From Clostridiaceae bacterium (GTDB lineage: Bacteria > Bacillota > Clostridia > DSM-8532), in the NCBI GenBank assembly GCA_012522505.1, contig JAAYKJ010000081.1, positions 1-43,038 on the forward strand: a DNA stretch of 43,038 bases, read 5' to 3'. Positions 1 through 2,184 of this stretch are shown in pieces (position 1 is the first letter of the stretch; the number at the start of each line of letters is the position of its first letter). A program made the translations under genes and the position numbers. The notes under the pieces are model-generated. The model saw only the letters and a program-made list of their open reading frames with translations, searched no databases and was not told where the DNA came from.

Positions 1-1894
1 TCCGGATATTGTCATAAATCCTTCGTCCATCTTTTATAGTTTCAACGATGGTAGTGAAATTATCATCCATCAAAATCAGGTCAGCTGCTTCCCGAGAAAC
101 CTCACTTCCACGCTTACCCATAGCAATACCGATGTCTGCATATTTAAGAGCGGGTGCGTCATTTACACCATCACCTGTCATAGCAACGATTTCACCGTTC
201 TCCTTCAAGGCTTTTACAATCCGCATTTTATGCTCGGGAATGACACGAGAGAAAATAGACACATCCTTCACTGCTTCTCGCAACTCATTATCGGTCATCT
301 CGTTGAGCATATTCCCGGTAATTATGTTCTCACTGTGCTCAATACCAACTCTTTTGGCTATGGAGGAGGCGGTGATGCCATTGTCACCAGTAATCATCAC
401 GACTCGAATGCCAGCTTTTTGGCACACTTTAATGCCGGGCTTGACACTATCCCGGGGAGGGTCGGAAAGACCAATCAAACCACAGAGATTCAAACTGCAA
501 TCGGTAATACTTGAGGGGATTTCTTTTTCAGAGTCAACTGTTGCAGTTGCTACTGCGATTACGCGCAGCCCTTGTTCAGATATTTCTGAAATTTTATGCT
601 CGGTTATCTCTCTGATTTCCTCTTCAAGGTTGCATATCGCTAATATCTGTTCCGGCGAACCTTTAGCAGCTATAATAATATTACCGTTCCTGCGCCAGAC
701 ATGTCCCATCATTTTTAATTCATTGGTAAAGGCATACTCATAAATTAACTCACCGCTAAAAAGATGCTCCTTTGATATTCCATGGCTATCACAGTAAGAG
801 AGCATTGCCTTTTCCATGGGGTCATAAGCATCTGTTTCGCAGCCCAGCCCCAGCGTTAAGATAAGATTATGTTCATCGCCGTCCGGTGTCCATCCCTCTT
901 GGACAGTCATCTGGTTCATGGTAATGGTCCCCGTTTTGTCTACGCATAACACAGATATGGACCCAAGAGTTTCAACAGACGAAAGTTTTCCGACGAGTGA
1001 ATTTTTCTTTGCCAGGCGCCATGCACCCAGAGAAAGAAATACTGTTAGTATGACGGGAAACTCTTCAGGTATCATCGCCATAGCAAGTGTGACCCCTGAC
1101 AGGATACTTTCAATCAAACGCTCTCTTAATGGATGCTCTGGTATATTAATATAGGTAACCGCGCCCACCAAGGCGAACAGTACCCCTGCTATTGCGGCGC
1201 ACGTTTTAGTCAGCCTGCCTGTCTGCTTTTGTAAAGGTGTTGGCTCGTCAGGAGCGGTTGCAACATTCACCCCTATTTTACCATACTCGGTTTCGGTTCC
1301 AATTTTGTCAACCAATACTGTTCCTGTGCCATGCGTAACAAGGGTGCCTGCATAGCAATAATTCTTATGCCAGTATTCATTGGAAGACTCTACGCAATCG
1401 ATTATTTGTTTCCATACACCTTCAGCTTCACCGGTAAGCGACGATTCATCCACACAAAGATCATTACACTTAACCAATTTACCATCAGCAGGGATCTTTA
1501 TGCCCTCGTGTATCATCATCAGGTCGCCGGGTACAAGATCGCTGCTGGCAATCATCGTTTCTTTACCATCCCGGATAACCGCAATATGTGGCGAAGATAA
1601 ATCCTTAAGGGCTTTCAAGGTTTTATCTGTTTTCCATTCCTGGATCACATCGATGCTGATAACACCGGTAACAAAAATCAGCATAACAGAACCATCTTTC
1701 GGTTCACCCAGAATAAAATAAACGATTGCGGCCACGATTAGCAAAAGGAACATTGGCTCACAGATAATGTGTAAAATCTTCTGAAAGAGGTTTTCCTTTT
1801 TCTGTGGTGTTAATTCATTTTTACCGTATTGATGCTGTAGCTGTCTTGCTTCGGCGGAAGTAAGCCCCGACATGATTTTGTTTTTGATCGTCAT
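1..1894 (-). CDS. P2-type cation-transporting ATPase, 3' end outside window
   Basis: This is a membrane P-type ATPase of the P2 (SERCA-like) family, pumping a cation at the cost of ATP. About 631 residues are visible of a usual 850-900. Reading the minus strand shows the N-terminal actuator region, a PEEFPV membrane motif where Ca pumps usually have PEGLP, the phosphorylation motif DKTGTIT (Asp near residue 319) and the hinge motif TGDGVNDAP. The C-terminal membrane helices lie off the left edge. I start at the ATG at 1892-1894 because GGAGGG lies 6-11 bases before it; an internal ATG seven codons later lacks such a site. The leader carries a NiCo riboswitch and overlapping terminator, so the family resemblance to Ca pumps is probably misleading: the inferred role is cobalt/nickel (or related transition metal) efflux. 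The family call is secure; the substrate is inferred from regulation. Confidence 0.93.
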   Translation of the reverse strand, partial: MTIKNKIMSGLTSAEARQLQHQYGKNELTPQKKENLFQKILHIICEPMFLLLIVAAIVYFILGEPKDGSVMLIFVTGVISIDVIQEWKTDKTLKALKDLSSPHIAVIRDGKETMIASSDLVPGDLMMIHEGIKIPADGKLVKCNDLCVDESSLTGEAEGVWKQIIDCVESSNEYWHKNYCYAGTLVTHGTGTVLVDKIGTETEYGKIGVNVATAPDEPTPLQKQTGRLTKTCAAIAGVLFALVGAVTYINIPEHPLRERLIESILSGVTLAMAMIPEEFPVILTVFLSLGAWRLAKKNSLVGKLSSVETLGSISVLCVDKTGTITMNQMTVQEGWTPDGDEHNLILTLGLGCETDAYDPMEKAMLSYCDSHGISKEHLFSGELIYEYAFTNELKMMGHVWRRNGNIIIAAKGSPEQILAICNLEEEIREITEHKISEISEQGLRVIAVATATVDSEKEIPSSITDCSLNLCGLIGLSDPPRDSVKPGIKVCQKAGIRVVMITGDNGITASSIAKRVGIEHSENIITGNMLNEMTDNELREAVKDVSIFSRVIPEHKMRIVKALKENGEIVAMTGDGVNDAPALKYADIGIAMGKRGSEVSREAADLILMDDNFTTIVETIKDGRRIYDNIR

Positions 1895-1970
1895 GAAGAA
1901 CCCTCCGTTTTACCTTTCGGTAGCGATTATTTTCCCCTATGCTACGCATTTCAGAGTCGTTCCGTAGAGT

Positions 1971-2016
1971 AAAAAAAAGCACATCTATGGAACATACTAC
2001 TGTCCCACAGATATGC
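1971..2016 (-). terminator. Intrinsic terminator of the NiCo riboswitch expression platform
   Basis: On the minus strand a 15-pair stem (arms 2002-2016 and 1979-1993, with a few G-U pairs) is followed directly by a run of eight T at 1971-1978. Its 5' arm is the 3' part of the NiCo aptamer (last stem plus the closing GGGAC), so aptamer and terminator cannot form together. This is the layout of a ligand-ON transcriptional switch. Confidence 0.88.
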
Positions 2017-2093
2017 GTTATTGCAATCTGCTGCCGCTCATTGGGCGGCCCGGCCCCACGAACCTGTAGGTTAAGGTTCATCGCCTGCTCAGT
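1999..2093 (-). ncRNA. NiCo (cobalt/nickel, czcD motif) riboswitch aptamer
   Basis: Read on the minus strand, the RNA starts ACUGAGCAGGCGAUG and ends AUCUGUGGGACAGU. It shows the NiCo four-way junction: closing stem ACUG/CAGU, a helix GAACC/GGUUC after CAGGC, a GGGGCCGGG segment with a CCGC/GCGG helix, and a CAGAU/AUCUG helix followed by GUGGGACAG. The order and the junction guanines (GCAGGC, GGCCGGG, GCGGCAGCAG, GUGGGACAG) agree with my recollection of the published NiCo aptamer. It lies about 105 bases before the ATPase start codon, with a terminator overlapping its 3' side. Confidence 0.9.
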
Positions 2094-2110
2094 TTGTACT
2101 GTTAATCATG

Positions 2111-2128
2111 CATTCTATATATAGAATG
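2111..2128. promoter_or_regulatory. 18-bp perfect palindrome in the riboswitch leader
   Basis: The sequence CATTCTATATATAGAATG is a perfect dyad, lying between the predicted transcription start and the NiCo aptamer. It could be a repressor operator or a 5' leader hairpin. No regulator gene next to it identifies a binder. Confidence 0.4.
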
Positions 2129-2155
2129 TAATGCAGTGCAAAGAGATTACAATAT

Positions 2156-2184
2156 ATTATATGCTACATTGCCGCTAATGTCTA
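2156..2184 (-). promoter_or_regulatory. Predicted sigma-A promoter for the P-type ATPase leader
   Basis: On the minus strand TAGACA (2179-2184) and TATAAT (2156-2161) are separated by 17 bases. Transcription would begin near 2149, some 55 bases before the riboswitch aptamer. Confidence 0.6.

Follow-up and report, generated by a model that had tools for sequence, protein, structure and literature searches.

The genes under the control of the NiCo (czcD) riboswitch class have been described broadly as heavy-metal transporters, and the Sensei RNA is another iron riboswitch class. Xu and Cotruvo reportedly reassessed the NiCo class as Fe(II)-responsive. The original characterization by in-line probing gave values of 6.5 µM for Ni and 13 µM for Co (PMC7689651). 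Under anaerobic conditions, the class binds Fe(II) with a Kd of 0.4 µM, and in cells, Fe(II) and Mn(II) are the only metals present at matching levels (PMC7689651). One NiCo-controlled exporter, from Listeria, confers resistance to Fe(II) and not to Co(II) (PMC7689651). The class has also been listed as an Fe2+ riboswitch (PMC11477304). In the reported mechanism, metal relieves termination and promotes read-through (PMC7689651).

The window we analyzed is the entire contig G000:C253 of a Clostridiaceae bacterium, 43,038 nucleotides in length; the leader and gene described here are read on its minus strand (Table 1). Rfam cmscan identified a single riboswitch in the window, a NiCo element (RF02683) that scored 82.7 bits (gathering score, 37; E = 5.8e-18) and covered model positions 1 to 96 of 96. 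It is the only NiCo element of this genome. Non-standard pairs were flagged at just two positions of the RF02683 alignment, the conserved core guanines and the four-helix junction are in place, and the invariant columns, GGGAC among them, are common to this aptamer and 23 others. An in-house covariance model, R1, built from 24 aptamers with a short calibration, gave the element 74.4 bits, although the training set of R1 includes it. The well-formed aptamer proposed from the sequence-only reading of this locus is therefore present.

Table 1. Features of the NiCo leader and the ATPase gene in the window
Feature	Position	Strand	Evidence
Sigma-70-type promoter TAGACA-17-TATAAT	2156..2184	-	Consensus match 11/12
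Conserved 5' leader box CTCTTTGCACTGCAT, absent from the Rfam NiCo model	2131..2145	-	Motif matches
NiCo riboswitch aptamer, P1-P4 (Ni/Co, probably Fe(II))	1998..2102	-	Rfam RF02683
Intrinsic terminator hairpin, 16 pairs, excludes P4 and P1	1979..2016	-	Terminator scan
U8 tract of the terminator (T8 in DNA)	1971..1978	-	Sequence, terminator scan
Post-terminator strand complementary to the terminator 3' arm (tentative)	1958..1970	-	Complementarity statistics
Shine-Dalgarno GGAGGG	1901..1906	-	Sequence
PEEFPV-type P-type ATPase, P2 architecture, N-terminal 631 of 840 aa	2..1894	-	ORF; contig end
TM4 ion-site motif PEEFPV	1053..1069	-	Second Glu in 107/107 family members; Gly in 16/20 other P2 ATPases

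The distance from the aptamer to the P2-type ATPase gene downstream is 104 nt. TTGACA/TATAAT-like boxes occupy the place of the window's promoter in related leaders too. A palindrome, CATTCTATATATAGAATG, sits between promoter and aptamer (2103-2121, minus strand), and related leaders carry a CATTC...GAATG hairpin there. Elsewhere in the window, an 80-aa open reading frame at 2307-2549 on the plus strand resembles, by eye, the C-terminal end of a methyl-accepting chemotaxis protein; it has no Pfam match and is perhaps a gene remnant.

The terminator scan returned a hairpin, GCATATCTGTGGGACA-GTAGTA-TGTTCCATAGATGTGC, whose 5' arm (2016-2001) is made up of the 3' strands of P4 and P1, conserved GGGAC included. 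The expression platform and the aptamer are mutually exclusive in consequence of this shared strand. The sequence-only reading had been nearly right here: it took the last stem of the aptamer as the 5' arm and counted 15 pairs, one short of the actual hairpin, and its run of eight T is found directly behind. The minimum free energy fold of the leader is the terminator form (z of -3.4 versus shuffles), and a stem of 9 or more pairs that overlaps the aptamer and ends in a T-run occurs at 74 of 83 NiCo loci. The shared strand, the recurrence of this overlap, and the metal-induced read-through reported for the class (PMC7689651) together argue for an ON switch, the logic that had been suggested from sequence. 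At low metal, the nascent RNA would fold the terminator and transcription would end at U8. Binding of a divalent transition metal by the aptamer would hold P4 and P1, making the 5' arm unavailable; with the terminator blocked, polymerase would continue into the ATPase gene. The encoded pump, of P2 architecture with an altered ion site (TM4 PEE, TM5 His, and TM6 His/Glu/Asp/Cys), would then export the sensed metal. We put the probability of this account, in which the leader responds to metal as a transcriptional ON switch and the ATPase behind it is a transition-metal efflux pump, at roughly 0.8.

The ATPase open reading frame begins with an ATG at 1894, preceded by GGAGGG, and is truncated because the window begins at the contig end. 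Its C-terminus was found on a second contig (G000:C17:1-756) with an identical 127-bp overlap, for a total of 840 aa. DKTGT is present in the part encoded in the window, which has neither an HMA domain nor a CPx motif. The family belongs to the P-type ATPase superfamily with P2 architecture (DKTGT, TGE, and GDGxND, with Cation_ATPase_N and Cation_ATPase_C domains), and PF00690, PF00122, PF00702, and PF00689 all scored above cut-off in the protein of a congener. Equivalog assignment did not follow. For the full-length congener protein, the best NCBIfam model was the PMR1-type Ca2+ model TIGR01522, at 515 of 798 bits, with TIGR01116 at 433 of 703 and TIGR01517 at 381 of 507, so that every P2A Ca2+-ATPase model stayed below its cut-off. 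Nor is the protein a P1B heavy-metal ATPase, given PEEFPV in TM4, 256 of 346 bits with TIGR01525, and the missing HMA domain; the initial description of a PEEFPV pump with no classical P1B motif was accurate. Among relatives with a solved structure, the Listeria Ca2+-ATPase LMCA1 is the closest, and structure comparison returned Ca2+ pumps as the nearest folds. An AlphaFold model (pLDDT 83) supports the overall fold only. Members of the family are at present annotated only as "cation-translocating P-type ATPase," and our literature search found no mention of PEEFP motifs.

We then considered how often NiCo elements and this pump occur together. Our phylum sample comprised 398 genomes, evenly drawn but not phylogenetically independent, in which the Rfam NiCo model found 113 sites in 99 genomes. 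A degenerate DNA pattern for PEEFPV gave 72 raw matches in 66 genomes; since about 45 of these were not P-type ATPases, we set the raw count aside and demanded an open P-type ATPase frame, which left 27 PEEFPV ATPases. A called NiCo match lies directly ahead of 23 of them. Among the other four, one locus (G054) has an aptamer start, ACAGTACAAACTGAGCAGGCGATGG, followed by an N-masked stretch and a terminator tail, one (G264) has a weak aptamer match of 29.5 bits, and one (L159) has lost its upstream DNA at a contig end; only the ATPase of G111 is truly without a NiCo element. Of the 26 PEEFPV ATPases whose upstream DNA can be read in this sample, 25 thus have a NiCo leader, compared to 0 of 54 for the other P2-type ATPases, all of those listed in 30 genomes (Fisher p of ~3e-21 for a table of 28:1 versus 0:54, in genomes that are not phylogenetically independent). 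The enrichment is stronger than had been proposed from the window alone.

Clustering of the genes behind NiCo elements in the phylum gave 54 CDF exporters out of 84, 24 PEEFPV ATPases, and a handful of other or truncated genes; three were checked with Pfam. Some genomes hold both a CDF exporter and a PEEFPV ATPase. At three loci (L087, L089, and L090), the gene behind NiCo encodes a small conserved membrane protein (~125 aa, YMPHSLVEN-like), with a CDF exporter next in one. In the genus of the window, one NiCo element (L145; G416:C457:17150-17236:-) precedes, by eye, a MacB/LolD-like ABC ATPase, a permease, and a membrane-fusion protein, possibly a third kind of NiCo-controlled exporter. Another in the same genome (L144; G416:C11:8714-8802:+) precedes a predicted SAM-dependent methyltransferase, again by eye. 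As this last target is seemingly unrelated to metals, placement behind NiCo is by itself no proof of a substrate.

A second line of evidence comes from the ion site. We aligned 107 PEEFPV ATPases and 20 P2 ATPases from outside the family and read the positions equivalent to those of SERCA. The clade has a nearly invariant membrane code: PEE in TM4, HxP in TM5, and H....E...DPxC in TM6. SERCA G310 is replaced by E in 107/107 members, N768 by H and E771 by I in 105/105 each, N796 by E in 100/104, T799 by I in 103/104, and P803 by C in 102/104, while E309 and D800 are retained. The TM6 His is conserved in 103 of 105 members, at a position where the other P2 ATPases carry Gln or His. The four Ca2+-ligand positions N768, E771, N796, and T799 therefore read H, I, E, and I in nearly all members of this clade versus N, E, N, and T in the other P2 ATPases. 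Carboxylate, imidazole, and thiolate groups in place of amide and hydroxyl ligands would be more suitable for a borderline transition metal than for Ca2+, in line with established coordination preferences.

Beyond the phylum, scanning of GTDB representative genomes gave at least 80 PEEFPV-family loci in bacteria and archaea. Among the matches listed, 15 of the 19 closest loci have an Rfam NiCo element directly upstream. A further one of these 19, in a Lentisphaeria metagenome-assembled genome (L276), has the element (714-805) 2.1 kb upstream with two genes between, the order being NiCo, a radical SAM/B12-binding protein, a DUF2062 protein, and the ATPase third. R1 added NiCo-linked members in Synergistota, Spirochaetota, Elusimicrobiota, Cloacimonadota, Chloroflexota, and Omnitrophota. 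Two of these, in Cloacimonadota and Elusimicrobiota, also pass the Rfam gathering score; the weaker covariance-model matches in Spirochaetota, Chloroflexota, Synergistota, and Omnitrophota fall below it and rest on R1. An overlapping terminator was seen by eye at several of these added loci. With the pairing recurring in dozens of genomes and several phyla, the family very probably exports a transition metal.

In a FastTree phylogeny, the PEEFPV family formed one clade against the other P2 ATPases with support of 100. The NiCo label changes 10 to 11 times on this tree, at least 6 of them forced by well-supported branches, which implies that the coupling to the pump was gained or lost repeatedly. 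NiCo elements are missing from about half of the sampled clade (archaea, Pseudomonadota, Bacteroidota, and others), and the metal they sense may thus not be the substrate everywhere. Clustering of the neighbors of ~80 PEEFPV loci yielded no conserved operon partner, no metal genes were found among the neighbors examined of members without NiCo, and the upstream regions scanned for those members held no Mn riboswitch or other Rfam regulator. One member without a NiCo leader, 63% identical, is carried on the 919-kb replicon pCR1A, a plasmid of Enterococcus gilvus (L353; 390254-392779).

The leaders carry conserved sequences in addition to the aptamer. In the subclade of the window, leaders have a 15-nt box, CTCTTTGC(A/G)CTGCAT, at the 5' end of the transcript; all 15 exact matches in 24 genomes sit 20 to 43 nt upstream of a NiCo aptamer. 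The box is conserved only in NiCo leaders starting with ACAGTAYAAA, which are the ATPase leaders and a few CDF leaders. It may pair with the aptamer start, ACAGUACAAA, as an extra P0 stem. Box and aptamer start strictly co-occur, and we keep this stem tentative because there is one compensatory change (G-C to A-U in L091) and single-locus significance is weak. Downstream of the terminator and ahead of the start codon, there is a second box, TGCC(A/G)TAGAGCTATC. Its 6 matches in 21 genomes are all in NiCo-ATPase leaders, a seventh (G432) is likewise behind NiCo, and the window has a degenerate form at ~1935-1917 on the minus strand. At nine loci (L070, L073, L076-L078, L083, L191, L261, and L341), this box is accompanied by a small hairpin just ahead of the Shine-Dalgarno sequence, a combination almost absent elsewhere in the genomes examined. 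RNAalifold gave no consensus fold for the stretch from the GUGCCAUAGAGCUAUC box to the Shine-Dalgarno sequence, and we do not claim a structured element there. The strand behind the terminator could pair with the 3' arm, enclosing the U-tract, and its sequence changes together with that of the arm from one ATPase leader to the next. Complementarity exceeds chance in ATPase leaders, being found at p ≤ 0.05 in 19 of 38 of them versus 8 of 53 CDF leaders; for the window alone it is not significant (p = 0.14).

Which metal the pump exports is a separate question from the switch. From coupling and ligands, it is plausibly iron(II), cobalt, or nickel, and sequence data do not choose among Fe(II), Co(II), and Ni(II). 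The current argument that this riboswitch senses Fe(II) makes Fe(II) no less likely than Co or Ni. If the ON-switch explanation holds, we would give Fe(II) about even odds, Co or Ni a lesser though considerable chance, and another divalent metal a small one. Taken by itself, the idea that the pump exports Fe(II) and serves ferrous-iron homeostasis in anaerobes alongside NiCo-controlled CDF exporters falls somewhat short of an even chance. Fe(II) is the ligand bound with an affinity in keeping with its cellular availability (PMC7689651), and the hosts on the tree are mostly anaerobes (Acetobacterium, Sporomusa, Clostridium, and relatives, with methanogens outside the NiCo set). However, host lifestyle is circumstantial, the family occurs without NiCo in aerobic Pseudomonadota too, and no recurrent iron gene was seen beside the pumps among the neighbors examined.

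A pump that exports Co(II)/Ni(II) specifically, with the switch sensing toxic Co or Ni and the pump removing it, corresponds to the Co/Ni efflux hypothesis of the sequence-only reading. We consider this unlikely, though well within contention. Ligands such as His, Glu, Asp, and Cys are appropriate for borderline metals and the first-reported binding was to Ni and Co, but those affinities are too weak for cellular Co/Ni (PMC7689651). The anaerobic Fe(II) response, the Listeria exporter's Fe(II)-specific phenotype (PMC7689651), and the Fe2+ listing of the class (PMC11477304) also speak against it. Aptamer, mutually exclusive terminator, and enrichment carry over from that reading, and its Co/Ni substrate becomes one candidate among several.

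Export of manganese, as by the YoaB-type P2 ATPases that follow the yybP-ykoY Mn riboswitch, is improbable: C. difficile CD2503/YoaB sets the precedent of a P2 ATPase behind a metal riboswitch and a GDT1-family cation/proton antiporter adjoins the pump at one Omnitrophota locus, but NiCo aptamers bind Mn2+ weakly, at 220 µM or 11 µM (PMC7689651), and no family member scanned has a Mn riboswitch upstream. Least probable of all is an ordinary Ca2+ (P2A) ATPase merely induced by the riboswitch, to which the LMCA1 relationship, the nearest folds, and the PMR1-type best model would point, since that model stays far under its curated cut-off, 4 of 5 aligned calcium-ligand positions are replaced clade-wide, the nearest-fold Ca2+ pumps lack the changed residues, and true PEGLP-type pumps of the same genomes are never NiCo-linked.

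Returning to the ON switch with a transition-metal pump, we provisionally propose, at somewhat under even odds, that the PEEFPV clade is an uncharacterized family of P-type ATPases that has an ion-site code of its own, exports a transition metal, most likely Fe(II), and in Bacillota is under almost obligatory control by an extended NiCo leader. Two independent lines, the coupling to a riboswitch and an ion site peculiar to the clade, thereby give a large group of ATPases a hypothesis on what it transports. The substrate of the pump would bear on the dispute over which metal the NiCo riboswitch senses in cells. If it is Fe(II), a P2-architecture pump would join the short list of bacterial iron exporters; we know of no other Fe(II) exporter of this architecture. 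The NiCo switch class is already known. The ligand code of the clade and the strength of the coupling appear to be new in the searchable literature; an earlier mention elsewhere of P2 ATPases behind this riboswitch is possible.

Compared to known systems, the window shares with YoaB-type loci a metal riboswitch that switches on a P2 ATPase, but the riboswitch class differs. The PfeT/FrvA-like P1B-4 ATPase of Listeria, implicated in Fe(II) efflux (PMC7689651), is also a P-type ATPase exporter behind a czcD riboswitch; its architecture is P1B, and motifs of that type are missing from the window's pump. CDF cation efflux proteins (PF01545) are the main alternative behind NiCo in the phylum and have a secondary transporter fold unrelated to the ATPase. 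The P2A Ca2+-ATPases LMCA1 (lmo0841; PDB 9euq/6zhf), PMR1/SPCA1, and SERCA match the pump in domain order, E309, D800, and fold; the PEEFPV ATPases differ by G310E, N768H, E771I, N796E, T799I, and P803C and form a separate, fully supported clade below all equivalog cut-offs. Finally, the window's switch agrees with the NiCo (czcD) riboswitch RF02683 in its full-length aptamer, conserved Gs, terminator-based ON switch, and a downstream gene for a putative metal exporter. Unlike the described members, it controls a P2-architecture ATPase rather than a CzcD/CDF protein or a P1B-4 ATPase, and its leader adds to the Rfam model a conserved 5' box and post-terminator sequences.
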